Below, one piece after another: positions 7,455-23,137 of a stretch of DNA of 64,000 nt. The stretch spans positions 26,353 to 90,352 of the forward strand of contig JACMLY010000079.1 of the NCBI GenBank assembly GCA_014379345.1, read 5' to 3'. Below the pieces are notes generated by a model. The model worked only from the letters and a program-made list of their open reading frames with translations, had not been told where the DNA came from and searched no databases. The translations under genes were made by a program, and so were the position numbers. Source of the DNA: Chitinophagaceae bacterium. Lineage in GTDB: Bacteria > Bacteroidota > Bacteroidia > Chitinophagales > Chitinophagaceae. Position 1 is the stretch's first letter; each line of letters begins with the position of its first letter.

Positions 7455-9086
7455 ATGATATCAATTGCTGAACGGCCATTAACGTTAAATGAGTGCAGAG
7501 AGATCTTATTCAAGGATGAACAAATTTCCCTTTCGGGTTCAGCCTTGAAAAAAGTAAGTGAAAGCCATTCGTTCCTGCAATCTTTCTCTAAGAACAAGCT
7601 TATTTACGGCATTAATACCGGCTTTGGCCCAATGGCCCAATACAAGATCAGCGATGAAAACCTGATAGAACTTCAGTATAATCTTATCCGCAGTCATTGC
7701 TCAGGTAGTGGTAAACTCTTATCACCTGTTTTGATCAAGGCACTGATGATAGCCCGTTTAAACAGTTTAATGCAGGGTTATTCAGGTGTACATACGGAAG
7801 TGGTGGAATTGCTGGCCACCCTGATCAACCGAAATGTTCATCCCTGTATTTACGAACATGGCGGTGTTGGCGCCAGCGGCGACCTGATCCAGCTAGCTCA
7901 CCTTGCACTTGTGCTCATCGGCGAAGGAGAGGTTTTTTACCAGGATAAGGTTCAACCCACAGAAAATGTATTCGAACAATTACAGATAAAGCCTCTTGCT
8001 ATTCATATTCGTGAGGGGTTGGCTATTTTAAACGGCACTTCAGCCATGACAGGCATTGGCCTTGTAAATATTCTTCAAGCCAAAAAACTACTGGCATGGT
8101 CAGTAACCCTTTCTGCCATGACGAATGAGGTAATGGAAGCTTACGACGATCATTTTTCTTATGAATTGAATATCGTAAAAAAACATATAGGTCAAAATAG
8201 GATTGCTGGTGTAATGAGAGAGATGTTAACCGATAGTAACATGATACGCAATCGGTCACAGCATTTGTACCGCTCTGAAAATATCGAACAGAATGTTTTT
8301 GAGGACAAGGTGCAGGAATATTATTCACTGCGATGTGTAAGCCAGGTACTGGGTCCTATTTATGATACCATTCACCAGGCCGAAAAAGTAGTGGTGGACG
8401 AGCTGAATTCAGTCAATGATAACCCGATCATCGATAAGGCTAATGACAATATTTTTCATGGCGGAAATTTTCATGGTGACTATGTGGCCCTGGAAATGGA
8501 CAAGCTGAAAATGGCCATTACCAAATTATCCATGCTGGCGGAACGTCAACTCAATTTTCTTCTCAACGATAAGCTTAATAACAAGTTTCCACCTTTTATA
8601 AATATGGGAACTCTGGGACTCAATTTCGGTATACAGGGTATGCAGTTTACGGCTACTTCTACCGTGGCTGAAAACCAAACGCTTTCATTCCCCATGTATG
8701 TTCATAGCATTCCAAATAACAACGATAACCAGGATATTGTAAGCATGGGCTGCAATGCTGCCAACCTTACAAAAAAAGTCATCGAAAATTCATTTGAAGT
8801 GCTGGCAATTGAAATGACTGCTATTCTGCAGGCCATTGATTATCTCGACTGCACATCCCGCTTGTCTGGTTTCACAAAAACGATTTACGAAAATATAAGG
8901 GAAATCATTCCTGTACAGGTCGAAGATAAGGCCAGATACAAGGAACTAAGGCAGGTAAAACACCATCTCGAAACTGTTGACCCGCTTTTGTCTGGTAAAA
9001 TAGACGTTGATACTCCAACTCCTGCCATTTCATTGATGGAAATATTTAATAATGAATTGTCGCATTCCGTTCAAACCAAGGGTTAA
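7455..9086 (+). CDS. Aromatic amino acid (tyrosine/histidine) ammonia-lyase, MIO family
   Basis: The 543-residue product has the self-cyclising Ala-Ser-Gly (A140-S141-G142, in GVGASGDL) that forms the MIO cofactor, plus YGINTGFGP and the SVNDNPI segment of the HAL/TAL/PAL family. The enzyme removes ammonia from an aromatic amino acid. In aryl-polyene and flexirubin loci the family member makes 4-coumarate from tyrosine, which fits the adjoining ligase. The selectivity region reads RSHCSG. Histidine lyases can also have Ser-His here, so substrate is assigned from context rather than motif. No other histidine-degradation gene is nearby. Confidence 0.85.
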   Translation: MISIAERPLTLNECREILFKDEQISLSGSALKKVSESHSFLQSFSKNKLIYGINTGFGPMAQYKISDENLIELQYNLIRSHCSGSGKLLSPVLIKALMIARLNSLMQGYSGVHTEVVELLATLINRNVHPCIYEHGGVGASGDLIQLAHLALVLIGEGEVFYQDKVQPTENVFEQLQIKPLAIHIREGLAILNGTSAMTGIGLVNILQAKKLLAWSVTLSAMTNEVMEAYDDHFSYELNIVKKHIGQNRIAGVMREMLTDSNMIRNRSQHLYRSENIEQNVFEDKVQEYYSLRCVSQVLGPIYDTIHQAEKVVVDELNSVNDNPIIDKANDNIFHGGNFHGDYVALEMDKLKMAITKLSMLAERQLNFLLNDKLNNKFPPFINMGTLGLNFGIQGMQFTATSTVAENQTLSFPMYVHSIPNNNDNQDIVSMGCNAANLTKKVIENSFEVLAIEMTAILQAIDYLDCTSRLSGFTKTIYENIREIIPVQVEDKARYKELRQVKHHLETVDPLLSGKIDVDTPTPAISLMEIFNNELSHSVQTKG

Positions 9087-9095
9087 TATAAATTC

Positions 9096-9827
9096 ATGAA
9101 ATGTGCATTAGTTACTGGAGGATCTCGGGGAATTGGCCGGGCGGTTTGTTTGAAGCTAGCCGGTATGGGATACCACATATTGGTAAATTATAAATCGAAT
9201 GAAACGGAAGCTGCCAAAACTTTGTCACTGATAAATGAAAAAGGAGGCAGTGGAGAATTGTTGAGATTTGACGTGTCTGACAAAAATGATATTCAAAAAG
9301 TACTGGGAGGATGGATCGAGGCCAATGCAGATAATCTTATTGAAGTGCTGGTTAACAATGCCGGAATTAAAGAAGACGGATTATTGATGTGGATGAAAGA
9401 TGCGCAGTGGGACAACGTTATAAGGACAAGCCTCGACGGTTTTTTTTACGTTACCCGGTTGGTTTTGAACGGAGGGATGCTCTTAAAAAAGTATGGACGT
9501 ATTATCAATATTGTTTCTCTTTCGGGTTTAAAAGGGCTGCCCGGTCAAACCAATTACTCGGCTGCGAAAGCCGGGGTGATCGGTGCAACCAAGGCGCTGG
9601 CACAGGAGGTGGGTAGAAGGGGGATTACAGTAAATGCTGTTGCTCCGGGATTTATCAAGACCGATATGACGGTGGCGTTGAATGAGAAAGAAATGAAAGC
9701 CATGATACCGGTCCAACGGTTTGGGGAACCTGAGGAGGTAGCTCATGCGGTAGGGTTTCTTGCCTCGCCAGATGCATCTTATATAACTGCTGAGGTATTG
9801 TCTATTAATGGCGGATTATATTCCTGA
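9096..9827 (+). CDS. fabG: 3-oxoacyl-ACP reductase (SDR family)
   Basis: This 243-residue classical short-chain dehydrogenase has the NADP-binding TGGSRGIGRAV, NNAG, and the Ser-Tyr-Lys catalytic set in IVSLSG and YSAAK. The length and the C-terminal VLSINGGLYS match FabG. The reaction is reduction of 3-oxoacyl-ACP to 3-hydroxyacyl-ACP. It starts 9 bp after the lyase. As the only ketoreductase in the block it should act in every extension cycle of the polyene, feeding the dehydratase pair. Confidence 0.92.
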   Translation: MKCALVTGGSRGIGRAVCLKLAGMGYHILVNYKSNETEAAKTLSLINEKGGSGELLRFDVSDKNDIQKVLGGWIEANADNLIEVLVNNAGIKEDGLLMWMKDAQWDNVIRTSLDGFFYVTRLVLNGGMLLKKYGRIINIVSLSGLKGLPGQTNYSAAKAGVIGATKALAQEVGRRGITVNAVAPGFIKTDMTVALNEKEMKAMIPVQRFGEPEEVAHAVGFLASPDASYITAEVLSINGGLYS

Positions 9828-9867
9828 TATTGAATTTTAATTTTAAAAATAAAGAGTGAGATTTCAT

Positions 9868-9891
9868 AAATTGTAAGTACGAAGTTGAAGT
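9868..9891 (+). repeat. Short heptad-repeat tract (GTACGAA-like) abutting a start codon
   Basis: The 64-bp gap between fabG and the first ketosynthase ends with GTACGAA-GTTGAAG-TATGAAC, three imperfect 7-bp units. The ATG of the ketosynthase sits inside the third unit. The unit matches the longer heptad arrays near 34,387, 39,476 and 40,553. Confidence 0.5.
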
Positions 9892-11115
9892 ATGAACAGA
9901 GTCGTGATCACAGGTTTAGGTATTTATTCATGCATCGGTACCAGCCTCGATGAAGTAAGACAATCACTGTATGAAGGAAAATCCGGTGTAGTGGTTGATC
10001 AGGAACGTAAGCAGTTCGGTTATCGAAGCGGTCTTACCGGATTTGTACAAAAGCCTGTTTTGAAGGGTATTCTTGATCGAAGGGCCAGGATAATGCTTCC
10101 TGAACAGGGCGAATATGCATATATGGCAACATCCGAAGCACTGAAAAATGCCGGAATAGATCAGGATTACCTCGACAAACACGAAGTAGGCGTGCTATAT
10201 GGGAATGATAGTTCGGCACAACCTGTTATTGAGGCCATTGATATCATCAGGGAGAAAAAAGATACCATGCTCGTAGGTTCCGGTTCTGTTTTTCAAACGA
10301 TGAATTCAACGGTTACGATGAATCTTGCCACGATCTTCAAATTGAAGGGTATTAACCTGACCATCAGTGCTGCCTGTGCAAGTGGTTCACATGCTATCGG
10401 CATGGGATATCATTTTATTAAAAGCGGTTTGCAGGATTGTATCATATGCGGAGGTGCACAGGAAATTAACAGGTACTCTATGGGAAACTTCGATGCTCTT
10501 TCGGCATTCTCTATCCGTGAAGAAGATGCTACAAAAGCATCAAGGCCATTCGACCGCGACAGGGACGGCCTGATCCCAAGCGGCGGCGCGGCTACCGTTA
10601 TATTAGAAAGTTTAGAATCGGCACAGAAAAGAGGAGCAACTATTTTAGGAGAATTAATCGGATATGGATTTTCTTCAAATGGCGGACATATCTCAAATCC
10701 AACCGTAGATGGTCCCGTTCGTGCACTGTCTATGGCGCTTAAAGATGCGGGTGTGCAGGCTGGCGAGGTGGAATATATTAATGCTCATGCTACTTCAACG
10801 CCGGCTGGCGATGCCAGTGAGGCCAAAGCGATCCATCATGTTTTTGGCGCGTCTGATCCTTATGTGAGCTCTACCAAATCTATGACAGGCCACGAATGCT
10901 GGATGGCTGGAGCCAGTGAAATCGTTTACTCTATGTTGATGATGGAAAATGGCTTTATTGCACCCAATATTAATTTCGAAAACCCAGACGAAGATTCGGC
11001 CAGGCTCAATATTGTAACTAAAACCCTTTTAAAGGATTTTGATATCTTCTTATCAAACTCTTTCGGATTTGGAGGAACCAATTCATCGCTTATTGTTAAG
11101 AAAAGTAATCATTAA
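9892..11115 (+). CDS. Beta-ketoacyl-ACP synthase, FabF-like, catalytically intact
   Basis: The 407-residue condensing enzyme keeps the whole Cys-His-His set: C162 in SAACASGSH, a His in NAHATSTPAGD and a His in SMTGHECWMAGA. The C-terminal NSFGFGGTNSSL is standard. It joins an acyl group on its Cys to malonyl-ACP. Three intact ketosynthases occur in the block. In the E. coli aryl-polyene pathway one (ApeO) pairs with a chain-length factor and another (ApeR) acts separately. This copy has its own ACP 25 bp downstream and no adjacent degenerate partner, so initiation or an accessory role is possible. Confidence 0.9.
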   Translation: MNRVVITGLGIYSCIGTSLDEVRQSLYEGKSGVVVDQERKQFGYRSGLTGFVQKPVLKGILDRRARIMLPEQGEYAYMATSEALKNAGIDQDYLDKHEVGVLYGNDSSAQPVIEAIDIIREKKDTMLVGSGSVFQTMNSTVTMNLATIFKLKGINLTISAACASGSHAIGMGYHFIKSGLQDCIICGGAQEINRYSMGNFDALSAFSIREEDATKASRPFDRDRDGLIPSGGAATVILESLESAQKRGATILGELIGYGFSSNGGHISNPTVDGPVRALSMALKDAGVQAGEVEYINAHATSTPAGDASEAKAIHHVFGASDPYVSSTKSMTGHECWMAGASEIVYSMLMMENGFIAPNINFENPDEDSARLNIVTKTLLKDFDIFLSNSFGFGGTNSSLIVKKSNH

Positions 11116-11140
11116 TAAACCCTGATAAAAAAACCCCATT

Positions 11141-11398
11141 ATGAATAACGAAAACATTATCCAGAAAATAAATGGATTTTTGGTTGAAGAGTTTGAAGTG
11201 CAACCCGAAAAAATAATCCCCGGGGCTAACTTAAAAGAAGTTCTTGAATTAGATAGCCTCGATTATATTGATCTGGTTGTTGTGATTGAAAACAACTTTG
11301 GGTTTAAAGTAAAGCCTGAAGACTTTACGGGAATTGTAACATTCGAAGATTTTTATGAATATGTTACAAACCGTGTAAATGATAAAGTACTTGTATAA
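11141..11398 (+). CDS. Acyl carrier protein 1
   Basis: The 85-residue acidic helical protein has the phosphopantetheine site ELDSLDYIDL with Ser39. The stop codon shares its last base with the ATG of the next gene (TAATG), implying coupled translation. It differs clearly from the second carrier protein at 17,431, so the two probably serve different steps, for instance aryl starter and polyene chain, although which does which is not visible. Confidence 0.92.
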   Translation: MNNENIIQKINGFLVEEFEVQPEKIIPGANLKEVLELDSLDYIDLVVVIENNFGFKVKPEDFTGIVTFEDFYEYVTNRVNDKVLV

Positions 11399-12282
11399 TG
11401 CCGGCATGGCAGGGTAAAAGCAGAGGAACTACTTTAGGGTATCGTATTTTTGTAAGCATCCTTAAAAACTTTGGTGTTGCTTCGGCTTACTGGTTACTCA
11501 GATTTGTTGCGTTGTACTTTTGGTTGTTTTCTTATAAATCCTCCAGGCCTCTTTTTCACTATTTCCACCAAAAACTGGGATATGGAAGAATGAAATCCCT
11601 GGCGATGTTGTATACAAATTACTATCGCTTCGGGCAAACTCTTATCGACAAAGTGGTGGTAATGGCCGGAATAAGGAACAAATTCACATATCATTTTGAC
11701 GGAGAAGATAATTTGCACAAAATGGCAGCCCTCAAAAAAGGCGGGCTGCTATTGAGTGCGCATTTAGGGAACTGGGAAATTGCCGGCCATTTGTTTACAA
11801 GGCTGGGCACGCGTATTAATATAGTGATGTTTGATGGGGAGGATCGTCAAATAAAAAATTATCTTGAGCAGGTTACAGGCAAGCCAAACATGAATATCAT
11901 TGTGATCAAAGACGATATTTCTCATATCTATGCAATCAATGACGCCTTTAAGAACAATGAGTTGGTATGCATGCATGCAGACAGGTTTGTGGAAGGAAAT
12001 AAATCAATAAGCGGTAATTTCATGGGAGAGGATGCCCGGTTTCCGATCGGCCCTTTTGTACTGGCCGCTACATTTAAAGTACCAGTTTCGTATGTGTTCG
12101 CATTTAAAGAAACCAACAGGCATTATCATTTATATGCCAGTGAAGTTAAAGAGTATAGAAAAGGTTCAAAGGACACGGTCACCAGAGAAATACTGGCTGA
12201 TTTTATCGGGCAGATGGAAAATAAAGTGAAACAATACCCCGAACAATGGTTTAATTATTATAATTTCTGGCAGCAATCATGA
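11398..12282 (+). CDS. LpxL/HtrB-like lysophospholipid acyltransferase
   Basis: The 294-residue product belongs to the lipid A biosynthesis acyltransferase family. A hydrophobic N-terminal segment is followed by the HxxxxE motif in HLGNWEIAGH and the conserved RFPIGPFVLA stretch. Family members move an acyl group from ACP to a membrane acceptor. Overlap with the carrier protein gene (1 bp) and the dehydratase gene (4 bp) argues for a pathway-specific role, such as transferring the finished ACP-bound chain, rather than lipid A synthesis. That role is inferred. Confidence 0.85.
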   Translation: MPAWQGKSRGTTLGYRIFVSILKNFGVASAYWLLRFVALYFWLFSYKSSRPLFHYFHQKLGYGRMKSLAMLYTNYYRFGQTLIDKVVVMAGIRNKFTYHFDGEDNLHKMAALKKGGLLLSAHLGNWEIAGHLFTRLGTRINIVMFDGEDRQIKNYLEQVTGKPNMNIIVIKDDISHIYAINDAFKNNELVCMHADRFVEGNKSISGNFMGEDARFPIGPFVLAATFKVPVSYVFAFKETNRHYHLYASEVKEYRKGSKDTVTREILADFIGQMENKVKQYPEQWFNYYNFWQQS

Positions 12283-12716
12283 TAGTTTCCAAAGAACATA
12301 TACAGCCGCTCATTCCGCAACGGAAACCTTTTGTAATGATCGATGCATTATTGCATTCTGATGAAAGGAAAACAAGAACAACATTCCAGGTACGACAGGA
12401 AAATATTTTTGTTGTGGATGGGGTTTTCCGGGAGGCGGGATTACTTGAAAATATCGCACAAACCGCTGCAGCCAGGGTAGGGTATATAGTTCAAAAAGAA
12501 AAGATGGCGGCTCCAATGGGATATATAGGCGCGGTGAAGAACTTTGAAGTGTTCGATCTGCCAAAAGTAAACGAAGAACTGGAGACGGAAATCACCATCA
12601 CCAACCAGATTTTTGACATAACCGTCATTACCGGAATGATCACTTGTAATGATAAACTGATTGCCCGCTGCGAAATGAAAATTTTCATAACAAACCAAAA
12701 AAAAAATCAATTATAA
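12279..12716 (+). CDS. Hotdog 3-hydroxyacyl-ACP dehydratase partner retaining Glu but lacking His (ApeP-like)
   Basis: The 145-residue protein starts in a 4-bp ATGA overlap and has the FabZ/FabA-type hotdog layout: IPQRKPFVMID at the N-terminus and GLLENIAQTAAA on the central helix. Aligned by eye with FabZ, the catalytic Glu of the helix (LxxE-AQ) is kept. The catalytic His of the GHFP motif is replaced: the region reads DGVFREAG. The other dehydratase of the cluster (21,949) shows the opposite pattern. Because FabZ active sites combine His of one subunit with Glu of its partner, the two likely form one working heterodimer. Confidence 0.8.
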   Translation: MIVSKEHIQPLIPQRKPFVMIDALLHSDERKTRTTFQVRQENIFVVDGVFREAGLLENIAQTAAARVGYIVQKEKMAAPMGYIGAVKNFEVFDLPKVNEELETEITITNQIFDITVITGMITCNDKLIARCEMKIFITNQKKNQL

Positions 12717-12743
12717 AAACAGGCGGTTGCTTTCATTTAACTG

Positions 12744-12815
12744 ATGGCCGAATACGATGTAATTAAAGAAATAGAAAAATCAAAATATAAAGAGTGGAAG
12801 AAAAGGGTCTTATAA
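12744..12815 (+). CDS. Possible 23-residue microprotein
   Basis: An ATG-to-TAA frame of 23 residues, rich in Lys and Glu (EIEKSK, KEWKKR), sits in the gap between the dehydratase and thioesterase genes, in the operon direction. It ends 15 bp before a GTG and 33 bp before an ATG start of the next gene. Its amphipathic composition is compatible with a small helix, but a frame this short can arise by chance. No family is recognised. Confidence 0.25.
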   Translation: MAEYDVIKEIEKSKYKEWKKRVL

Positions 12816-12848
12816 CCGGAAACAAAACCGGTGGAAAAAAATCAAGGC

Positions 12849-13274
12849 ATGAGTAAGGTTTTGGTTGGAAGAACTGAAATAGCCGTGCGCTTTAACGAAG
12901 CTGATCCCCTGGGCATAGTTTGGCATGGCCATTACATCCGGTATTTTGAAGATGGCCGGGAGGCATTTGGGAACTCACATGGACTGAGTTATCTCGATTT
13001 CTATAAACAGGGATTTGTGGTTCCGGTAGTAAAAGTTGAATGCGATTATAAGCGCAGCCTTCGGTATGGAGATAAAGTCATCATCGAGAGCCTTTTTATG
13101 GCATGCGATGCTGCCAAAATAATGTTTGAGTATACCCTATTCAATGCCAAAACGAATGAACTTGTGGCAAAAGGTTCATCCATGCAGGTGTTTCTTGACA
13201 AAGAAACATCTACACTGCAATTAACCAATCCGCCATTTTTTGAGGAGTGGAAGAAAAAGCATGACCTGATTTAA
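12849..13274 (+). CDS. YbgC/4-hydroxybenzoyl-CoA-type thioesterase
   Basis: The track starts at a GTG (12831); the ATG at 12849 is equally possible and gives 141 residues, normal for the family. The motif FNEADPLGIVWHGHYIRYFE contains the catalytic Asp and surrounding loop of hotdog acyl-CoA/ACP thioesterases. It hydrolyses acyl or aryl thioesters. Aryl-polyene loci carry a similar thioesterase (ApeK), perhaps for releasing product or clearing stalled carrier proteins. The next gene begins 7 bp downstream. Confidence 0.85.
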   Translation: MSKVLVGRTEIAVRFNEADPLGIVWHGHYIRYFEDGREAFGNSHGLSYLDFYKQGFVVPVVKVECDYKRSLRYGDKVIIESLFMACDAAKIMFEYTLFNAKTNELVAKGSSMQVFLDKETSTLQLTNPPFFEEWKKKHDLI

Positions 13275-13281
13275 TACGATA

Positions 13282-14439
13282 ATGATGAGAGAGGTTTTTA
13301 TTGTGTCGGACAATATTATTTCACCGCTCGGTTCTGCAACGGAGGATAATTTCTATCAGCTTACCAAAAACAGAACCGCGATTGCGCATCATACACGCCC
13401 TGAATTTTCTGACCAGCCGTTTTATGCATCTTTATTGAACCAGGAACAGAATGAAAAGCTAAACGATCATATCCAGTCAACCATTGACTATACAAAATTC
13501 GAAAAGCTGCTCATTGCATCTATATCACAAGCGATAGAAAATACTGAAGTTGATCCCGGCTCGCCTGATACATGTATGATCCTGTCAACCACTAAAGGAA
13601 ACATCGGGTTGCTAGAAACAGAAAAAAATTCACCCGAACTTCAACAACGCATAGCGTTACATACTTCCGCTAAGCTGGTAGTCGAACACTTTAACAACCC
13701 CAACCGACCGGTCACTGTAAGCAATGCATGTATCTCCGGATTAACAGCGCTGCTTACTGCCAAAAGACTGATCCAATCCGGACGGTTTAAGCATGCTATC
13801 GTAACGGGTGCTGATATAATTTCAAAATTCATTTTATCGGGCTTTCAATCTTTTCAGGCAGTAAGTGACAAACCCTGTAAGCCTTTCGATGCAAACAGAA
13901 ATGGAGTTACACTTGGAGAGGCGGCCGGCACTGTAATATTATCTTGCGAAAACGGCCGAAATGAAAAGCGAATACAATTTGTATCCGGCGCGGTAAGCAA
14001 CGATGCCAATCATATTTCCGGTCCCAGCCGCACCGGAAAAGAATTATGTATTGCAATCAATAAATCATTGAGGGAGGCAAACTGCAAGGCAGATGATATC
14101 GGCTTTATATCGGCACATGGCACTGCAACAATATATAATGATGAAATGGAAGCCAAAGCCTTTGCCCTGGCAAATCTGGAATCAATTCCGGTAAACAGTT
14201 TGAAAGGATATTATGGACATACCTTAGGCGCTGCCGGACTCGTAGAGTCTATCGTATCTATCCATTCACTGCAACAAAATATCGTACTGCCCACTGCAGG
14301 ATTTGAAAGATCGGGTGTTACTGCAAATATCAATATCTGTGATAAGATCCAATCTATCAGGGCTGGAGTGCTTCTGAAAACTGCATCAGGTTTCGGAGGC
14401 TGTAATGCCGCGCTGGTATTTAAAAAATCGTACTCATAA
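13282..14439 (+). CDS. Beta-ketoacyl-ACP synthase, catalytically intact, divergent
   Basis: At 385 residues this is a shorter, more divergent KAS-fold protein. The nucleophile Cys lies in VSNACISGLTAL, the first His in ISAHGTATIYND and the second in YYGHTLGAAG, so catalysis should be possible. The N-terminal REVFIVSDNIISPLGS resembles the usual first strand. It is flanked by a thioesterase and a methyltransferase. The role of this copy relative to the other two intact ketosynthases is not readable from sequence; it may be the accessory enzyme corresponding to ApeR. Confidence 0.85.
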   Translation: MMREVFIVSDNIISPLGSATEDNFYQLTKNRTAIAHHTRPEFSDQPFYASLLNQEQNEKLNDHIQSTIDYTKFEKLLIASISQAIENTEVDPGSPDTCMILSTTKGNIGLLETEKNSPELQQRIALHTSAKLVVEHFNNPNRPVTVSNACISGLTALLTAKRLIQSGRFKHAIVTGADIISKFILSGFQSFQAVSDKPCKPFDANRNGVTLGEAAGTVILSCENGRNEKRIQFVSGAVSNDANHISGPSRTGKELCIAINKSLREANCKADDIGFISAHGTATIYNDEMEAKAFALANLESIPVNSLKGYYGHTLGAAGLVESIVSIHSLQQNIVLPTAGFERSGVTANINICDKIQSIRAGVLLKTASGFGGCNAALVFKKSYS

Positions 14440-14461
14440 TTATTTCAAATCATTTTTAAAC

Positions 14462-15547
14462 ATGATCTTAACCAAAGCACACCAAAAATCGGCCTTAGCT
14501 GCCAAAGAAGCGGCGCAATGGATAGCTTTCGCACCCGTCGTTTTTCAATCGGCAAGAGTGCTCAGGGAATCAGGTATTTTGCTTGAACTTGAAAATGCGG
14601 GCAAGGAAGGATTAACACTCGAAGAAGTTGCAGAGAAAGTCAACCTGTCTGTTTATGGTGTACGTGTATTATTGGAATCAGGGCTCGGTATCGGGTTAGT
14701 AGACAGTCACGAGGATAAATTTGTCATTACAAAGACAGGCTATTTTATAGTACATGATGAGTTGACAAATATCCATATGAATTTTGTTCATGATGTTTGT
14801 TATCAAGGGTTGTTTTCGCTCGACAAAAGTATTGCAAATGGAAAACCGGAGGGTCTGAAGGTATTCGGAGAATGGCCAACTATTTATGAGGGTCTTTCGA
14901 AATTACCAAAACATGTACAGAAAAGTTGGTTTGGATTTGATCATTATCATTCAGATCATGCTTTTCCTGATGCATTGCCGCAGGTGTTTAAATACAATCC
15001 GCGTAACATCTTGGATATTGGGGGCAATACAGGAAAATGGGCTATTGCGTGCACAAAATACAATCCCGAAGTACAGGTCACTATTATGGATCTTCCGGGG
15101 CAATTAAATATGGCCAAGTCGAGAATAGAAGAATTAAAGCTAACGAGCCAGGTGTCCTTTTATCCTACTAATATCCTTGATGAAACTTTGCCTTTTCCAA
15201 AAGGGTATGATATCATCTGGATGAGCCAGTTCCTTGATTGTTTTTCCGATGAAGAAATCGTTTCTATTCTAAAAAGATGTTATGAGGCATTGGATGAAAC
15301 CGGATCGGTATTGATACTTGAACCATTTTGGGACCGACAAAAATTTGAAGTGGCTTCCTTCTGCCTTCAACAAACATCATTGTATTTTACAGCGCTGGCT
15401 AACGGGAATAGCCAGATGTACAATTCGGAGACTTTTATAAGATGCATTGAGCAGGCGGGATTTGACATAGAAGAGCAAACGGATAGTATCGGATTCAGCC
15501 ATACCCTGCTGAAATGCGTGAAAGGGGATAAAAAAAATAAATCATAA
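14462..15547 (+). CDS. SAM-dependent O-methyltransferase-type enzyme
   Basis: The ORF extends to 14405, inside the previous gene, but the ATG at 14462 gives a sensible 361-residue protein. A winged-helix-like N-terminal region (LTLEEVAEKVNLSVYGVRVLLES) precedes a class I methyltransferase fold with LDIGGNTGKWA and IMDLPGQL. This two-part layout is that of plant- and polyketide-type O-methyltransferases. Flexirubins can be methylated on the phenyl ring, so the aryl end of the pigment is a reasonable target (inference). The halogenase gene follows after 7 bp. Confidence 0.8.
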   Translation: MILTKAHQKSALAAKEAAQWIAFAPVVFQSARVLRESGILLELENAGKEGLTLEEVAEKVNLSVYGVRVLLESGLGIGLVDSHEDKFVITKTGYFIVHDELTNIHMNFVHDVCYQGLFSLDKSIANGKPEGLKVFGEWPTIYEGLSKLPKHVQKSWFGFDHYHSDHAFPDALPQVFKYNPRNILDIGGNTGKWAIACTKYNPEVQVTIMDLPGQLNMAKSRIEELKLTSQVSFYPTNILDETLPFPKGYDIIWMSQFLDCFSDEEIVSILKRCYEALDETGSVLILEPFWDRQKFEVASFCLQQTSLYFTALANGNSQMYNSETFIRCIEQAGFDIEEQTDSIGFSHTLLKCVKGDKKNKS

Positions 15548-15554
15548 ATATCGT

Positions 15555-16817
15555 ATGCAAAATACAAAAGTTGATGTGCTGGTAATCGGGGCAGGTCCTG
15601 CAGGAACCGTTGCAGCGTCGATTGTAAAAAAGGCAGGCTTTAGCGTTCAGATCGTTGAAAAGATGAAATTTCCACGATTCGTGATCGGTGAAAGTTTGCT
15701 GCCCAGGTGCATGGAAGCCTTAGAGGAAGCAGGCTTCTTGGAAGCCATCGGAGCCAAAAATTTTCAGCAGAAATTCGGGGCGAAATTTGTGAAGAACGGA
15801 GTGATATGTGACTACTCATTTGCAGATCAATTTACCGAAGGCTGGAGCTGGACCTGGCAGGTACCACGTGCAGACTTTGACAAAACATTGGCCGATACAG
15901 TTGAAAAAATGGGGGTGCCCATTCATTATGAAACCACTGTTACGGGTATTCGTTTTAATGACACAGATTCAGTAACAACTGTACAGGATATTGAGGGCAA
16001 TCCATCAGAAATAGAAGCAAGGTTTATTATTGACGGAAGCGGCTATGGCAGAGTTATTCCAAGACTGTTTAATATGGAAAGGCCGTCGAACCTGGTGCCT
16101 CGTAAAGCAATGTTTGCACATACCGTGGATGCTAACAGGTCCATGGCAGATGAACCGAACCGGATCACCATCGTTGTACATAAACCTGGGGTCTGGATCT
16201 GGATAATACCTTTTTCAACCGGGGTAACCTCTTTGGGTTTTGTAGGCAATCCTGAATTCTTTAATGATTTGCGGGGTAGCGACGAAGAGAAATTCAGGAA
16301 CCTGATCGAATCACAGCCATACCTGGCCGAGCGTTTCGGAAATGTGCAACTCGTGTTCCAACCGAGAATTTTAGAATCATGGTCTGCCACTACCGATAAA
16401 TTTTATGGTAACGGTTTTGTTTTAACAGGGAATGTAACCGAATTCCTCGATCCCATTTTTTCGTCGGGCGTAACGCTTGCTACCGTTTCAAGCCAGAAAG
16501 CCGCTCATTTGGTCATTCGTACATTGAATGGGGAAAAAATAGACTGGGAAAAAGAATATATGGAGCCGGTTATGCAGGGCGTTAACACTTTCCGTTCGTA
16601 TGTTATGAATTGGTATGATGGAACACTGGATAAAATATTCTTTGCCAAAAAGCCAGACCTTGAAATAAAGAATATGATCTGCTCCGTACTGGCCGGGTAT
16701 GTATGGGATATGAACAATCCGTATGTAAGTGATCACGCAAATTCATTAAAAAGATTGGCGAGGTTAGTGGATGTAGAGGAAAAACTAAATGAACGGAAGG
16801 TAGAAAATCATTCATAA
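15555..16817 (+). CDS. FAD-dependent halogenase-family flavoenzyme
   Basis: The 420-residue protein has the FAD motif GAGPAGTVAAS, FPRFVIGESLLP, and the segment VWIWIIPFSTG, close to the WxWxIP signature used to recognise flavin-dependent halogenases. ILTG-type FAD contacts occur in GFVLTGNVTEFLDPIFSSG. Chlorinated flexirubins are known, so halogenation of the phenyl ring is the favoured role. Related members without halogenase activity exist (geranylgeranyl-reductase-like oxidoreductases), so the reaction is inferred from motif plus context. Confidence 0.8.
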   Translation: MQNTKVDVLVIGAGPAGTVAASIVKKAGFSVQIVEKMKFPRFVIGESLLPRCMEALEEAGFLEAIGAKNFQQKFGAKFVKNGVICDYSFADQFTEGWSWTWQVPRADFDKTLADTVEKMGVPIHYETTVTGIRFNDTDSVTTVQDIEGNPSEIEARFIIDGSGYGRVIPRLFNMERPSNLVPRKAMFAHTVDANRSMADEPNRITIVVHKPGVWIWIIPFSTGVTSLGFVGNPEFFNDLRGSDEEKFRNLIESQPYLAERFGNVQLVFQPRILESWSATTDKFYGNGFVLTGNVTEFLDPIFSSGVTLATVSSQKAAHLVIRTLNGEKIDWEKEYMEPVMQGVNTFRSYVMNWYDGTLDKIFFAKKPDLEIKNMICSVLAGYVWDMNNPYVSDHANSLKRLARLVDVEEKLNERKVENHS

Positions 16818-17438
16818 TTGTCGGATCAACTATATATCAGTTCAAGTTGTAAAATTGATGATAGCCACGTATTTAAAGATGGAGATCTGTTGCTCGGAAA
16901 AAAAATTGCGGTTGCAGAGTGGCTTTTGATGATATATAAACATTTCCGATTCGATTACCCAAAGTTTTATAAAATGGATAATCTGAGTAAACTGGGATGG
17001 CTGGCAACAGAATTTTTACTACAGGATGTTTCTCTGAAATCCTATGAACCCGAGGATATTGGCATTGTCTTTTATAACAGGAGCAGCAGTCTGGACACTG
17101 ATATTAAATATTTTGATACGGTTAAAGCGATAGCAAGCCCTGCATTGTTTGTTTATACCCTGCCCAATATTGTAATGGGTGAGATCAGTATAAGGCATCA
17201 TTTAAAAGGCGAGAACATTTTGTTTGTTTCAGACCGGTTTGAATCAGGCCTAATGCGGCAGTACGTACAAGACCTTTTTACAAGCGGCTCAGTGCGATGC
17301 TGTATCTGTGGTTGGATAGAATTTTTTGAAAATACTGTTGAAACGGCTTTGTACCTGGTAGAGACAAAAAACAATGGAATGTTTCTCCCATTCACCGAAG
17401 AAAATATTAATAAACTATATCAGTTAACAAATGGATAA
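16818..17438 (+). CDS. Half-length ketosynthase-like protein without catalytic Cys
   Basis: A TTG start immediately after the previous stop gives 206 residues; the next in-frame Met is over 30 residues in. The middle region aligns by eye with the N-terminal half of KAS enzymes: IRHHLKGENILFVSDRFESG corresponds to the strand and turn carrying the nucleophile, with SDRFESG in place of SNACISG, so Cys is replaced by Phe. The C-terminal half with both catalytic His residues is absent. It cannot catalyse condensation and may be a structural or docking partner for the adjacent carrier protein, which it overlaps by 8 bp. This family assignment is my inference. Confidence 0.6.
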   Translation: MSDQLYISSSCKIDDSHVFKDGDLLLGKKIAVAEWLLMIYKHFRFDYPKFYKMDNLSKLGWLATEFLLQDVSLKSYEPEDIGIVFYNRSSSLDTDIKYFDTVKAIASPALFVYTLPNIVMGEISIRHHLKGENILFVSDRFESGLMRQYVQDLFTSGSVRCCICGWIEFFENTVETALYLVETKNNGMFLPFTEENINKLYQLTNG

Positions 17439-17688
17439 ATTAATGGCAGATCTGAAAAAGCAGATCATTTCACAATTGAACCTACAACATATAACGCCGG
17501 AACAGATAGGAAATGATCAGCCATTGTTCGTGGAAGGATTGGGTTTGGATTCCATTGACGCACTTGAACTGATCGTACTTCTTCAGCAACAATACAATAT
17601 CAAGATCAACAATGCAGAAGAAGGCCCGAAAGTATTTAGCAGTGTTCGTTCAATGGCTGAATATATAACCGCCAACCAGCCGGCATAA
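17431..17688 (+). CDS. Acyl carrier protein 2
   Basis: The 85-residue protein has the attachment motif GLGLDSIDALEL with Ser41 and a typical helix II-III pattern (LLQQQYNIKI). The ATG at 17431 overlaps the upstream gene by 8 bp; a second ATG at 17443 is also possible. It lies between the half-length ketosynthase-like gene and an intact ketosynthase/degenerate partner pair, so it is the likeliest carrier of the growing polyene chain. Confidence 0.92.
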   Translation: MDKLMADLKKQIISQLNLQHITPEQIGNDQPLFVEGLGLDSIDALELIVLLQQQYNIKINNAEEGPKVFSSVRSMAEYITANQPA

Positions 17689-17696
17689 TGTGAGCA

Positions 17697-18899
17697 ATGA
17701 GTGAAAACGTATACATCGCGGGAATAGGTGTGATATCTGCTATAGGAAGCAATATTGCCGAGACTTTACAGGCATTGGAAAACCACCGCGCCGGCATGGG
17801 CGCTATTACAACACTTGATACTATTCATCGCGAACGGCTTCCTGTTGCCGAGGTGAAATTCAATAATGAAATCCTGGCAAAACTTACGGGGTTACCGGCC
17901 ACGGTAAGCCGTACTGCCTTATTAAGCATGATGGCTGCCCAAGAGGCCTGGGAGGATGCAGGGGTTAATGAGCTTACAGGATTGCGCACCGGCTTTATTT
18001 CAGCCAATACAGTCGGCGGCATGGATAAAACGGAGGATTTTTTTTCTGGGTTCTTAGAAAATCCGCAAAATGGAGGAAGATTAAGGGATGTTGTACATCA
18101 TGAATGCGGAAGTGTAACCGAACTGGTTGCGGATCGGTTAGGCATTAAGCATTTGGTAACTACGGTGAGCACAGCCTGCTCTTCGTCCGCAAACAGTATA
18201 TTCTTTGGAGCACGATTAATAAAACACAATAAGCTTGATGTAGTGATTGCAGGTGGCGCCGATGCCATCACGAAATTTACCATCAATGGTTTTAATACAT
18301 TGCAGATACTGGATGAACAACCTTGTACGCCTTTTGATGAACACCGTAAGGGATTGAATTTAGGGGAGGGTGCCGGGTATATTGTACTTGTGTCTGAGAA
18401 ACTGGCTAAAAAATTACCGAAAGATTGTTATTGCAGACTGAGTGGATACAGCAATGCAAATGATGCACATCATCAAACAGCTTCATCGCCCGATGGTAAA
18501 GGATCATATTTGGCAATGAAGAATGCATTGAAGCAAACCGGGCTGCAGCCTTCTGATATAGATTATATTAATCTACATGGAACCGGCACTGCAAATAATG
18601 ATATTTCCGAAGGCATCGCCATACAGAGACTTTTCGATCCCCACTATCCAAAAATGAGCTCCACCAAATCGTTCACAGGTCATACACTTGGAGCAAGCGG
18701 GGGAATCGAGGCGGTGTTTGCTGCCCTTGCTATTAAGCATGGAATTATTTATCCTAATCTGCGGTTAACCACGAAAATGGAGGCTTTGCCATTTACTCCG
18801 GAAAAATTTTTTTTAAAGAACCAACAAGTGCGACATGTTTTGAGTAACTCATTTGGTTTTGGAGGCAATTGCTCATCTTTAATTTTTTCAACCGCCTAA
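17697..18899 (+). CDS. Beta-ketoacyl-ACP synthase (KS of a KS/CLF-like pair, ApeO-like)
   Basis: The 400-residue enzyme keeps Cys (VSTACSSSANS), His (INLHGTGTANND) and His (SFTGHTLGASG), plus the C-terminal NSFGFGGNCSSL. It is followed after one base by a degenerate homologue. That arrangement of an active subunit next to an inactive one is characteristic of type II polyketide KS/chain-length-factor pairs and matches ApeO/ApeC of aryl-polyene synthesis. It is the best candidate for the main polyene-extending condensing enzyme. Confidence 0.9.
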   Translation: MSENVYIAGIGVISAIGSNIAETLQALENHRAGMGAITTLDTIHRERLPVAEVKFNNEILAKLTGLPATVSRTALLSMMAAQEAWEDAGVNELTGLRTGFISANTVGGMDKTEDFFSGFLENPQNGGRLRDVVHHECGSVTELVADRLGIKHLVTTVSTACSSSANSIFFGARLIKHNKLDVVIAGGADAITKFTINGFNTLQILDEQPCTPFDEHRKGLNLGEGAGYIVLVSEKLAKKLPKDCYCRLSGYSNANDAHHQTASSPDGKGSYLAMKNALKQTGLQPSDIDYINLHGTGTANNDISEGIAIQRLFDPHYPKMSSTKSFTGHTLGASGGIEAVFAALAIKHGIIYPNLRLTTKMEALPFTPEKFFLKNQQVRHVLSNSFGFGGNCSSLIFSTA

Positions 18900-18900
18900 G

Positions 18901-19959
18901 ATGAAGCTGTACATTCAGGCAACAGGAAATATATCGCCCCAAAATACACTTGGGCAACCGACGTTGCCGGCAAACCTTTCTGAATACAATACCAATCGGC
19001 TTTACTCCATAGAACCGGACTATAGCAAACTGATCGATGTGAAACTCATTCGGAGAATGAGCCGGATCATTAAAATGGGAGTAGCAGCCGCTTTACAATG
19101 TTTACAAGAGGCAGGAGTAGAGAACCCGGATGCAATTATTACCGGAACGGCGTATGGTTGCCTGGAAGATACCGGTGTATTCCTTCAGAAAATGGTTCAA
19201 AACAAAGAAGAAATGCTGACTCCTACCGCTTTCATTCAGTCAACACATAATACAATAGGTGCACAGATAGCATTATTGCTCAAATGCCATGGTTACAATA
19301 ACACGTTTGTACACCGCGGTTTTTCTTTTGAGAGTGCCTTGCTGGATGCGATCATGCTATTGGAAGAAAAAACCGTGAGCAATGTTTTGATAGGGGGCGT
19401 GGATGAAATAACCGATTTCAGCTTTGGTATTACCAGCCGGTTTGGACTGTTTAAAAAAAACATCAACTCTAATCTCAACTTATTCGACACCCCTTCAAAA
19501 GGAACGATTGCCGGGGAAGGTGCTGCCTTTTTTTTATTGAACAATCATCCTTCCCAAAAGGATTATGCGTTGCTTGATGGAGTGAGTACTTTTTATAAAC
19601 CCATCGATCTTGAAGAAACAGAACACCACATTCAATCATTTTTAAGTGAGCAATCGATTTCGATGAATGATATTGATCTTGTACTATGCGGAAGAAATGG
19701 CGATAGTATAGGAGACAAGGTTTATGACGATCTTAATGAAAGATTATTTGAGCAGTCATTAATTACTAACTATAAGCATTTATGCGGCGACTACCCCACC
19801 AGCACTGCGTTTGCATTATGGTTGGCCGCCGGCATTATCAAAAGCGGCTCCGTTCCAGAGGCATTAATGAAGGCACCAAAAAATGATATTAAAAGGATAC
19901 TTATTTACAACCATTATCAAAAGATCCATCACTCATTAATGTTGGTTTCAACATGTTAA
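18901..19959 (+). CDS. Chain-length-factor-like degenerate ketosynthase (ApeC-like)
   Basis: The 352-residue protein has a KAS-like course, but all three catalytic positions appear lost. The nucleophile site reads HRGFSFESALLDA (Cys to Phe), the first His region reads CGRNGD and the second reads LCGDYPTSTAFAL. Secondary features such as VLIGGVDEITD and GTIAGEGAAFFLL remain. It starts 1 bp after the intact ketosynthase and overlaps the next gene by 7 bp. I infer a heterodimer with the upstream enzyme in which this subunit shapes the chain-length pocket. Confidence 0.82.
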   Translation: MKLYIQATGNISPQNTLGQPTLPANLSEYNTNRLYSIEPDYSKLIDVKLIRRMSRIIKMGVAAALQCLQEAGVENPDAIITGTAYGCLEDTGVFLQKMVQNKEEMLTPTAFIQSTHNTIGAQIALLLKCHGYNNTFVHRGFSFESALLDAIMLLEEKTVSNVLIGGVDEITDFSFGITSRFGLFKKNINSNLNLFDTPSKGTIAGEGAAFFLLNNHPSQKDYALLDGVSTFYKPIDLEETEHHIQSFLSEQSISMNDIDLVLCGRNGDSIGDKVYDDLNERLFEQSLITNYKHLCGDYPTSTAFALWLAAGIIKSGSVPEALMKAPKNDIKRILIYNHYQKIHHSLMLVSTC

Positions 19960-20726
19960 CTTTTAGAAATACCAATATCTTTTTCGCTGCGCTTATTATT
20001 TGCCTTCTGATTTTACAGGTATGGTTTCTTATACCCATGTATATATATTTCTCACTTGCTGCACTTTATTTTCTTTTCCTGTGTTACGGATCATACAATG
20101 TTGGCAGCAATTTTTTTATGAAAGTTTTGTGTTCGGCAAATACCACGGAAAAGCTGATTGCCATTAGCTTTGATGACGGTCCGGTTCAGCAATATACGCC
20201 GCAGGTGTTGGAGGTATTGAAAGAACAAAAAGTGCCTGCCGCTTTTTTTTGCATTGGGAAACGAATTGTGGAAAATGAATCGTTGTTTCGACAGGTTCAT
20301 GAGCAAGGCCATATCATTGGTAATCACAGCTTTTCCCATAAGCCTTTATTTGATCTGTTACCAGCAGGTCAAATGATGCATGATGTACGCATGACCGATG
20401 CCGCAATAAAGGAATCAATTGGCTTACAACCCAAATTGTTTCGGCCTCCCTACGGAATCACCACTCCTGCAATGAAAAAAACGATGATTAAAGGAGGATA
20501 TACCGCCATTGGCTGGAGTATCAGATCTTTCGACACGATGGCAAAAGATGAAAAAAAATTATTGAATAAATTGATCAGGCTGTTGCGCCCTGGTGCAATC
20601 ATCTTGTTGCACGACACGCAAAAAATTACTTTGTCGATATTGCCTCGTTTCATCCAGGCTGCGCGCAACGAAGGATACGAATTTGAGCGTCTGGATAAAC
20701 TGTTAAACGTAAAAGGGTATGCTTAA
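19953..20726 (+). CDS. Membrane-anchored NodB-type polysaccharide deacetylase
   Basis: After about 50 hydrophobic residues forming one or two membrane helices, the 257-residue product carries the NodB domain: SFDDGP with the metal- and base-supplying Asp pair, GNHSFSH for the metal His residues, RPPYG, and the late LLHD motif. Family members remove N-acetyl (sometimes O-acetyl) groups from glycans. Its place in a pigment operon is odd. It could de-acetylate a carbohydrate or ester on the pigment, or remodel the envelope where the pigment is inserted. Overlaps on both sides support co-expression. Confidence 0.85.
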   Translation: MLTFRNTNIFFAALIICLLILQVWFLIPMYIYFSLAALYFLFLCYGSYNVGSNFFMKVLCSANTTEKLIAISFDDGPVQQYTPQVLEVLKEQKVPAAFFCIGKRIVENESLFRQVHEQGHIIGNHSFSHKPLFDLLPAGQMMHDVRMTDAAIKESIGLQPKLFRPPYGITTPAMKKTMIKGGYTAIGWSIRSFDTMAKDEKKLLNKLIRLLRPGAIILLHDTQKITLSILPRFIQAARNEGYEFERLDKLLNVKGYA

Positions 20727-21354
20727 ATTGAGACTATTGATCGTGTATTTGTGTGGCGTGGTTACGATGCAGGCCCAATATCCGGGATTCAAGTCCGTTA
20801 ACGATTTGGGCCGGTTCAAACAGCTGTTTACATCCACTGCAGAAAACACGCAAACCATCAAAAGCGATTTTGTTCAGGAGAAAGAACTAAGCATGTTATC
20901 TGAAAAAATAACCTCAAAGGGGAGATTCTGGTTTAAGAAGAATAATAAAGTTCGTATGGAATACACAGAGCCTTTTCAATACCTGATGATCATTAATCAG
21001 AATAATATATATGTAAAAGATGGGCAAAAAGAAAGCAGGATCTCAACCAGATCGAACAAACTGTTTCAACAGATCAATGCAATAACAGTGGATTGCATAC
21101 AGGGAACCGTATTGAACAACCCGGAGTATAAGATTAAAGTGTTCGAAAACAATCAAAGTTTTCTCATCGAATTGTCTCCCTCGGCAAAAGCCTTGAAAGA
21201 GTTCTTTAAAAACATTAATATTTTCGTGTCTAAAAAAGACTATTCAGTAAATAAGCTCGAACTACATGAACAGTCGGGCGACAAGACAATTATTAGTTAC
21301 CTGAACAAGGAATTGAATACAACCCTTCCGGATGCGTTATTTTCTATTAAGTAG
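20719..21354 (+). CDS. LolA-like periplasmic lipoprotein/lipid carrier
   Basis: The 211-residue protein has an N-terminal signal (about 20 residues ending near MQAQ) and a LolA-type pattern: IKSDFVQEKELSML, GRFWFKKNNKVRMEYTEPF and a long mixed strand region. LolA carries lipoproteins across the periplasm. Aryl-polyene loci commonly include such a paralogue, presumably carrying the hydrophobic pigment-lipid between membranes together with the MMPL exporter and the lipoprotein encoded next. That cargo assignment is inferred. Confidence 0.8.
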   Translation: MLKLRLLIVYLCGVVTMQAQYPGFKSVNDLGRFKQLFTSTAENTQTIKSDFVQEKELSMLSEKITSKGRFWFKKNNKVRMEYTEPFQYLMIINQNNIYVKDGQKESRISTRSNKLFQQINAITVDCIQGTVLNNPEYKIKVFENNQSFLIELSPSAKALKEFFKNINIFVSKKDYSVNKLELHEQSGDKTIISYLNKELNTTLPDALFSIK

Positions 21355-21949
21355 TTACTTGTTGTTTCTGGGGGGATGCTCCTCCTCTTATAAGCAACTC
21401 CAGGCAACTGACCGAGATGCCTCCTGCCTGTATAAGTTTAAGCCACATTTTACAACCTCCATATATACCACTCATGTAGATATTCTCGGAAACCATCTTA
21501 GCGGTTTGCTGGTTGTAAAGTCAATGCCAGACAGCAGCACACGATTGGTGTTTACGAGTGAAATGGGACTTTCCCTGTTTGATTTTGAGTTTGCTGAGAA
21601 TGGTGATTTTAAGGTTCATTATATCATCAGGAAAATGAACAGGAAAGCGGTCATTAAAACATTGCAAAAGGATTTTGAACTGGTGTTAATGAAACAATTG
21701 AATACGCAGACAGCCCGAATTTTTAGCGACAGCAAAAGAATCTATTACGCTTTTCCGCAAAAAAAGGGCAGCAATTATTATATTACGGACCTTAGATGTG
21801 ATACGCTGATGGGAATAGAAAAAGCTTCGGCAAGAAAAGCCATGGTTACGGTGATTATGCAGGAGTACAAAAATGGAGTTCCCGATACGATCGGCATTTC
21901 ACACACCAATTTTCAATTTACTATTGGATTAAAAAGATTACAGCGATAA
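21332..21949 (+). CDS. Outer-envelope lipoprotein of the pigment cluster, possibly LolB-like
   Basis: The start overlaps lolA by 23 bp and the end overlaps the next ATG by one base. The N-terminal FLLSSYLLFLGGCSSS is a clear lipobox, with lipidation expected at Cys16. The rest of the 205-residue chain is beta-rich (VVKSMPDSSTRLVFTSEMGLSLFDFEF), compatible with a LolB-like acceptor fold, but I do not recognise a named domain. Position directly after a LolA-like gene suggests it receives the pigment at the outer membrane. Confidence 0.6.
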   Translation: MRYFLLSSYLLFLGGCSSSYKQLQATDRDASCLYKFKPHFTTSIYTTHVDILGNHLSGLLVVKSMPDSSTRLVFTSEMGLSLFDFEFAENGDFKVHYIIRKMNRKAVIKTLQKDFELVLMKQLNTQTARIFSDSKRIYYAFPQKKGSNYYITDLRCDTLMGIEKASARKAMVTVIMQEYKNGVPDTIGISHTNFQFTIGLKRLQR

Positions 21950-22317
21950 TGCTACAAGGAAATTTTTATACGATCCTGAACAACCAGGCGGAAACCGGTT
22001 CGGTTAATCTATTGCTTGAACTAAACCCGGATCACCACATTTTCGAGGGTCATTTTCCCCAGCTTCCCGTTGTGCCGGGGGTATGTATGATGCAAATGGT
22101 AAAGGAATTAGTTGAGGATTTTACGGGCCAACGGCTAAGACTGGCCAAGGCAGACCATTTAAAGTTTTTAACGATCATCAATCCACGTGAAAATAAATTA
22201 TTGCAGGTAGATATAGCCATCAATTCCCGGTCTACCCAGGGGGTACAGGTAACCGCCTCTTTTTTTCACCAGGCAACCGTTTTCTTTAAATTTAAGGGAG
22301 GCTTTGTGATTGAGTAA
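21949..22317 (+). CDS. Hotdog 3-hydroxyacyl-ACP dehydratase partner retaining His but lacking Glu (ApeI-like)
   Basis: The 122-residue protein is a compact FabZ-like hotdog with the catalytic-His motif HIFEGHFPQLPVVPGV intact. In FabZ the residue five after PGV is the catalytic Glu; here the stretch reads PGVCMMQMVKEL, so Glu is replaced by Gln. This is the reciprocal of the defect in the 12,279 gene. In E. coli aryl-polyene synthesis ApeI works with ApeP. It is the last gene of the block: after its stop come a palindromic spacer and an unrelated DUF5606 gene. Confidence 0.82.
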   Translation: MLQGNFYTILNNQAETGSVNLLLELNPDHHIFEGHFPQLPVVPGVCMMQMVKELVEDFTGQRLRLAKADHLKFLTIINPRENKLLQVDIAINSRSTQGVQVTASFFHQATVFFKFKGGFVIE

Positions 22318-22337: not shown

Positions 22338-22397
22338 GAATACAGAATTTTGTGTTCTTGCTGCCAACTCCCATATTCTGTATTGCCTTCTGTATTC
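22338..22397. repeat. Small inverted repeat downstream of the pigment operon
   Basis: GAATACAGAA (22338-22347) and TTCTGTATTC (22388-22397) are a perfect 10-bp inverted pair, with another TTCTGTATT between them. No T-run follows, so it is not a standard terminator. It may be a relic of a dispersed repeat. The 154-bp gap holds nothing else I can name. Confidence 0.45.
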
Positions 22398-22471
22398 CAA
22401 GCCCTTCTGGTAAAGAATTTGTATATAAAAAATTCCTGTTATCTTGCACGTCCTTAAAAAGTTTTCGAAAT

Positions 22472-23137
22472 ATGGAGTATAGTAAGATTATAGCCGTTAC
22501 CGGTATGCCAGGTCTTTATGAATTATTAACCAGCAAAAGCGATGGGGCCATTGTGCGTTCATTGGAAGATAAGAGCACAAAGTTCGTTTCTTCACGTATT
22601 CACAATTTTTCACATTTGGAAAGCATCGAAGTTTTTACAGTTCGGGAAAATGTAAACCTGGTCGATATTTTTCATGCAATGGAAAAAGATGAAGTAAAAA
22701 TTCCTGATGGAAAGGACAATGCTGCGCTGAAAAAATATTTTGATAAAGTTTATCCTGATCTGGATTTTGAAAGAGTGTACAGCAGTGATCTGAAAAAAAT
22801 GGTAAAATGGTTTGAGGTGCTTAAAGCAAATGAGATTGAGATTAAATTAAGCCAGGCACCGGCTGAGGAGACAGAAGCAGAGGGCGTGTCGGAAATAGCC
22901 TTTGAAGAAGTAGAAAAAGTAGGGGTAGAAGAAAAGAAACCCAAAGAACTGAAAGAGGAAAAGAAACCCAAAGAACTGAAAGAGGAAAAGAAACCTAAAG
23001 AAGTGAAAGAGGAAAAGCAAGCTCCGGCAAAGAAGGCGGCGGCTAAAGCAAAAGCGAGTGAACCAAAAGGAGTGAAAGAAACCAAGGAAGTAAAACCAAA
23101 AAAATCTGCTCCAAAGAAAAAGAAAGAAGATAAGTAA
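22472..23137 (+). CDS. DUF5606 family protein with charged Lys/Glu tail
   Basis: The ORF track begins at 22352 within the palindromic spacer. The ATG at 22472 starts the conserved part (MEYSKIIAVTGMPGLYELL), giving 221 residues. About 130 residues match the Bacteroidota-specific DUF5606 pattern, of unknown function. The C-terminal 80 residues are low-complexity Lys/Glu/Pro/Ala, built partly from a 9-residue repeat, resembling histone-H1-like or nucleic-acid-binding tails. No signal peptide is present, so it is cytoplasmic. Confidence 0.75.
   Translation: MEYSKIIAVTGMPGLYELLTSKSDGAIVRSLEDKSTKFVSSRIHNFSHLESIEVFTVRENVNLVDIFHAMEKDEVKIPDGKDNAALKKYFDKVYPDLDFERVYSSDLKKMVKWFEVLKANEIEIKLSQAPAEETEAEGVSEIAFEEVEKVGVEEKKPKELKEEKKPKELKEEKKPKEVKEEKQAPAKKAAAKAKASEPKGVKETKEVKPKKSAPKKKKEDK
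22931..23011 (+). repeat. Three tandem 27-bp units inside the DUF5606 gene
   Basis: Three in-frame copies of a 27-bp unit encode EKKPKELKE-type nonapeptides. The first two copies are identical and the third differs at two bases. A partial fourth follows. Such near-identical coding repeats usually arise by slippage and vary in number between strains. Confidence 0.85.

Follow-up and report, generated by a model that had tools for sequence, protein, structure and literature searches.

The window analysed here (64,000 nucleotides of a Chitinophagaceae bacterium; contig JACMLY010000079.1, positions 26,353 to 90,352) carries a cluster for flexirubin, an orange pigment, extending from FlxA to FlxS (7455..22317) and recognised by NCBIfam markers and Pfam families, with all of its genes on the forward strand. 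FlxA (tyrosine ammonia-lyase), FlxB (reductase) and LolA2_flexi score above their NCBIfam cut-offs, and the family search also detected ketosynthase (KS), acyl carrier protein (ACP), acyltransferase, methyltransferase and thioesterase families; a 4HBT thioesterase gene is situated at 12831. Genes homologous to those of the flexirubin cluster also occur in E. coli. The Flx lettering comes from the Chitinophaga pinensis flexirubin cluster, where two dehydratases, FlxF and FlxS, are listed (PMC3992019); the open reading frames (ORFs) starting at 12,279 and 21,949 were assigned to FlxF and FlxS by gene order and type. Beside the second ACP, an ORF of 206 aa (16818-17438) has no Pfam match and a length like that of the half-size chain length factor ApeC; its reading as an ApeC-like chain length factor is unsupported, as BLASTP against E. 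coli ApeC gave a non-significant E-value of 0.012. Immediately 3' of the cluster, positions 22352-23137 encode a DUF5606/DUF6852 protein whose tail is repetitive and rich in Lys and Glu (EEKKPKELK repeats).

Profile and fold matches identify FlxF (12279..12716; 145 aa, VVDGVFREAGLLENIAQTAAARVGY) as an ApeP/FabZ-like dehydratase subunit. It has no Pfam match, and thus lies under the ApeP-like cut-off, and its E-value against the NCBIfam FabZ model (1.1e-6) is also under the cut-off; its profile matches include a solved FabZ (1.5e-10) and chain B of PDB entry 6qsr (6e-6), entitled “The Dehydratase Heterocomplex ApeI:P from Xenorhabdus doucetiae”. In the profile alignment to the solved FabZ, Glu57 (codon 12447..12449), the presumed catalytic acid, falls on the FabZ Glu, and no His stands opposite the FabZ GHFP motif, where FlxF has DGVF (residues 47-50; 12417..12428) in a loop shorter than that of FabZ. 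Glu57 and Gln61 (codon 12459..12461; the +4 Gln of FabZ) form the ENIAQ stretch, located at the FabZ helix motif E-x-x-x-Q. Both residues are invariant in our alignment of the family (A1), as is an N-terminal Pro, and both are present in 101/101 distinct, non-redundant FlxF relatives from public genomes. A conserved His position was sought in these 101 relatives and none was found; 17 of them carry a His within the 18 residues preceding the Glu, at scattered positions. In the FlxF model (mean pLDDT 90), the central helix (H52-72) has Glu57 as its sixth residue, and the model superposes on 6qsr_B with a TM of 0.85 and an rmsd of 1.6, the highest query-normalised TM among the Foldseek matches listed. 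The top fold match of FlxF is PDB 9a6k, a YcsD-FabZ model, perhaps another instance of a FabZ paralogue pairing with a partner; a literature search for YcsD-FabZ returned no match.

FlxS (21949..22317; 122 aa, IFEGHFPQLPVVPGVCMMQMVKELVED) is in turn assigned as an ApeI/FabA-like dehydratase subunit by Pfam, profile and fold matches. The Pfam FabA family is matched above its cut-off (6.5e-8) and the ApeI-like family below it (2.9e-4; 21.5 bits vs. a cut-off of 28.5); the best profile match is 6qsr_A (2.7e-9), and Foldseek aligned the FlxS model (mean pLDDT 96) on the same chain with a TM of 0.76 by query and 0.82 by target. Its GHFP motif aligns on that of FabZ, His35 (codon 22051..22053) being the presumed catalytic base, invariant in our alignment of this family (A2) and in the 61 distinct FlxS relatives. 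The Glu/Asp column of FabZ is occupied by Gln49 (codon 22093..22095), the sixth residue of helix H44-59 in the model; the relatives have Gln (57/61), Glu (3) or Asp (1) at this position. We sought an acid at the missing position through the profile alignment and the structural register, and only one a helix turn further on is present, Glu53 (codon 22105..22107), conserved as Glu/Asp in 59/61 relatives. The combination of Gln with an acid at +4 (56/61) is the inverse of the Glu-then-Gln order of FabZ, and this +4 acid may be structural or may act as a weak substitute acid.

Several checks bear on these residue assignments. Glu57 of FlxF and Gln49 of FlxS are both the sixth helix residue in their models, so the register holds whatever the placement of gaps. 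The housekeeping FabZ of this genome (an LpxC/FabZ fusion, G000:C11; GHFPGNCIMPGVLQIEALAQ) contains both His and Glu, as do nine further FabZ controls; neither FlxF nor FlxS combines the two in a single chain, as a homodimeric FabZ does. The open frames and the residues invariant across both families rule out that either is a decayed gene, and, given the counts in the relatives, the residue pattern is far beyond chance. The original prediction that the 21,949 product keeps the GHFP His with Gln at the Glu site, and that the 12,279 product keeps the Glu and has DGVF in place of the His, is thus borne out by the FabZ profile alignment, the helix register and conservation; the alignment against FabZ that it called for placed no His in FlxF and no Glu at the Gln49 position of FlxS. 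On its question of whether the two losses co-vary, the coupling proves not to be strict: three FlxS (loci L080, L181 and L183) carry Glu beside the His and one carries Asp, and the FlxF partners of these proteins are unchanged, still with Glu and still without His.

The two genes also travel together, and the pair of half-equipped subunits is maintained throughout the phylum. Strong matches (E < 1e-9) to FlxF and FlxS were found in the identical 39 of 393 Bacteroidota genomes, neither occurring in any other, an agreement inflated by the kinship among these genomes. FlxS is found downstream of FlxF; only in L073 do the two occupy opposite strands, and the gap between them can be as short as about 4 bp or as long as 14 kb. 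In L070, L099 and L181 the two are adjacent, with about 4-9 bp between their open frames, and they are neighbours in L183; what the window spreads over 10 kb is therefore a unit elsewhere. It had been proposed that genes so distant must have been kept in balance: the distance is confirmed (9.67 kb from start to start), but given its variation the spacing is incidental, and no more than shared cluster membership is needed for balance, a separate mechanism being superfluous. L070 (9263-10785) and L099 (9263-10780) present a ketoreductase-FlxF-FlxS mini-module with the genes almost touching, and L181 and L183 (wider views L206 and L207) present compact KS-ACP-FlxF-FlxS-ketoreductase-thioesterase clusters in which FlxA was not detected and whose FlxS has both His and Glu. 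The flexirubin clusters of Flavobacteriia (L151-L161, L163-L172, L184-L188) contain two tandem FlxF-like genes per FlxS. The tandem copies do not restore the His, since both have the Glu and neither has the His; the products of these clusters might form either of two heterodimers, or a trimer.

The closest known counterpart is found in the aryl-polyene (Ape) clusters. For the Acinetobacter cluster, the ApeI/ApeP dehydratases are described as a heterodimer with a single active site, the co-expressed pair being used in vitro, and the A. baumannii counterpart is ApeH/ApeI with ApeP (PMC8041823). The ApeI and ApeP of E. coli CFT073 match chains A and B of 6qsr, respectively; the former (GHF...PGVAQLDW) has His and Asp, and the latter (NLPGWFALELMAQ) has Glu and no His. 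ApeI:ApeP and FlxS:FlxF thus have in common two FabA/FabZ-like subunits within one pigment cluster, with both folds matching, one subunit bearing the His and the other the Glu minus the His, and separated, co-oriented genes (6.7 kb apart in E. coli). They differ in that the acid position is Asp in ApeI and Gln in FlxS, and sequence similarity between the Ape and Flx families is low, direct similarity between FlxF and ApeP being weak. As FlxS and FlxF miss the ApeI-like and ApeP-like cut-offs, they stand outside those Pfam families, and it is by fold and residue pattern that they are of the ApeI:ApeP kind. A joint tree grouped FlxF with ApeP at 100 and FlxS with ApeI at 78, on very long branches. 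The Ape side of this comparison comprises E. coli, X. doucetiae and PDB 3esi, an unannotated structural-genomics entry from Erwinia that corresponds to an ApeI homologue with four chains, ApeP being absent.

Taken together, FlxF and FlxS very probably form one composite-site dehydratase heterodimer, the flexirubin counterpart of ApeI:ApeP. Observation supplies this model with the residues, their conservation, the co-occurrence, the adjacency in some clusters and the single-chain fold matches to 6qsr; we infer from these the physical pairing of FlxF and FlxS in this organism, the activity of the pair and the inactivity of its second site. The two proteins would pair as a hot-dog heterodimer in which FlxS contributes His35 and FlxF contributes Glu57, brought together at the interface into a single working 3-hydroxyacyl-ACP dehydratase site, and the symmetry-related second site would be dead, with no His on the FlxF side and Gln for Glu on the FlxS side. 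This heterodimer would remove water after each ketoreduction during the construction of the aryl-polyene chain. Such a composite enzyme is of a known kind, given the 6qsr heterocomplex, the heterodimer of PMC8041823 and the cross-subunit sites of FabA (PMC2698920); the composite dehydratase is already known in Ape, and what the window adds is its extension to flexirubin.

It is highly improbable, in our judgement, that FlxS instead works as a homodimer through His35 and the Glu53 of the other subunit, with FlxF in a regulatory or structural role. The +4 acid of 59/61 FlxS and the crystallisation of 3esi without a partner speak for such an enzyme, and the conservation of Glu53 makes homodimer activity unlikely rather than impossible; however, the FabZ acid is at position 0, not at the +4 that Glu53 would need, and the invariance of the FlxF Glu and Gln, together with the constant co-occurrence, would be superfluous for a non-catalytic partner. 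That the heterodimer forms a complete site, one per dimer, draws strong support from conservation, from the co-occurrence and adjacency of the genes and from the precedent of 6qsr; that only the heterodimer could do so is less certain in view of Glu53. We give similarly little credence to the involvement of the housekeeping FabZ, either as the partner of FlxF and/or FlxS or as the sole dehydratase of the polyene intermediates, with FlxF and FlxS as accessories. This genome does have an intact FabZ, and the YcsD-FabZ complex model (9a6k) implies that FabZ paralogues are able to pair with FabZ, but FlxF and FlxS co-occur and adjoin in some clusters, which argues against this, and E. coli, despite its own FabA and FabZ, loses the pigment upon most core ape deletions, the exceptions that the paper names in its text being other than apeI and apeP, with single-gene phenotypes given in a figure (PMC8253772). 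That FlxF might be a single-acid hot-dog thioesterase outside the dehydratase is barely credible: several hot-dog families do rely on a lone Asp/Glu where FabZ has its Glu (PMC2698920), but the cluster already has its 4HBT thioesterase at 12831, FlxF retains an invariant N-terminal Pro along with the Gln of FabZ, and ApeP (6qsr_B) gives the highest query TM for its model among the Foldseek matches listed.

With the composite FlxF:FlxS site as the preferred reading, the acid position of the His subunit merits attention: ApeI has Asp there, most FlxS have Gln, and the FlxS of L080, L181 and L183 have Glu. It had been suggested that reciprocal loss explains the joint action of ApeI and ApeP; this does not hold, since the ApeI of both E. 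coli and X. doucetiae keeps His and Asp (the FabA acid), and reciprocal loss cannot explain the Ape pair generally. On sequence grounds, the step common to both pairs is that ApeP/FlxF lost its His. After that, the acid of the His subunit faces no His in the heterodimer and is hence free to vary, and free drift after the partner's loss would fit the observed spread of Asp, Gln and Glu; the order of events is in this respect our deduction, as the FlxS tree is too short for a confident order of the Glu/Asp/Gln changes and the joint Ape/Flx tree cannot prove it either. The three Glu-bearing FlxS relatives could be self-sufficient. We regard as unlikely the bolder proposition that selection favoured Gln plus a +4 acid as a means of blocking homodimers, turning an optional heterodimer of the Ape type into an obligate one; were it true, the Glu-bearing FlxS of L080, L181 and L183 would be either relatives able to act by themselves or reversions, and the natural series would run from self-sufficiency to an obligate partner.

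Among other systems, FabZ and FabA homodimers have the hot-dog fold and the cross-subunit His and Glu/Asp proposed for FlxF/FlxS; each FabA site is built from one residue of each subunit, and the FabA and FabZ dyads coincide (PMC2698920). Unlike FlxF/FlxS, these homodimers have two sites and both residues in every subunit. Mycobacterial HadAB and HadBC are heterodimeric 3-hydroxyacyl-ACP dehydratases of the hydratase-2 type with one active subunit; they resemble FlxF/FlxS as heterodimers, but differ by placing both catalytic residues on that one subunit. The KS/chain length factor (CLF) pair of type II polyketide synthases is, as proposed for the Flx pair, the product of a duplication after which one copy lost catalytic residues and the pair became the working unit, although the CLF provides no catalytic residue and there is no sharing of a site. 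The flexirubin dehydratases, so far merely listed as two, would become one heterodimer with one site, and the FlxS that naturally carry Gln, Asp or Glu permit a direct test of the passage from a homodimeric enzyme to an obligate heterodimer, in parallel to KS/CLF. In the window itself, a ketosynthase-like ORF (18901-19959) from which the active-site Cys is apparently absent (GYNNTFVHRGFSFES) is a candidate chain length factor, and would give the cluster another pair of which one member is degenerate.
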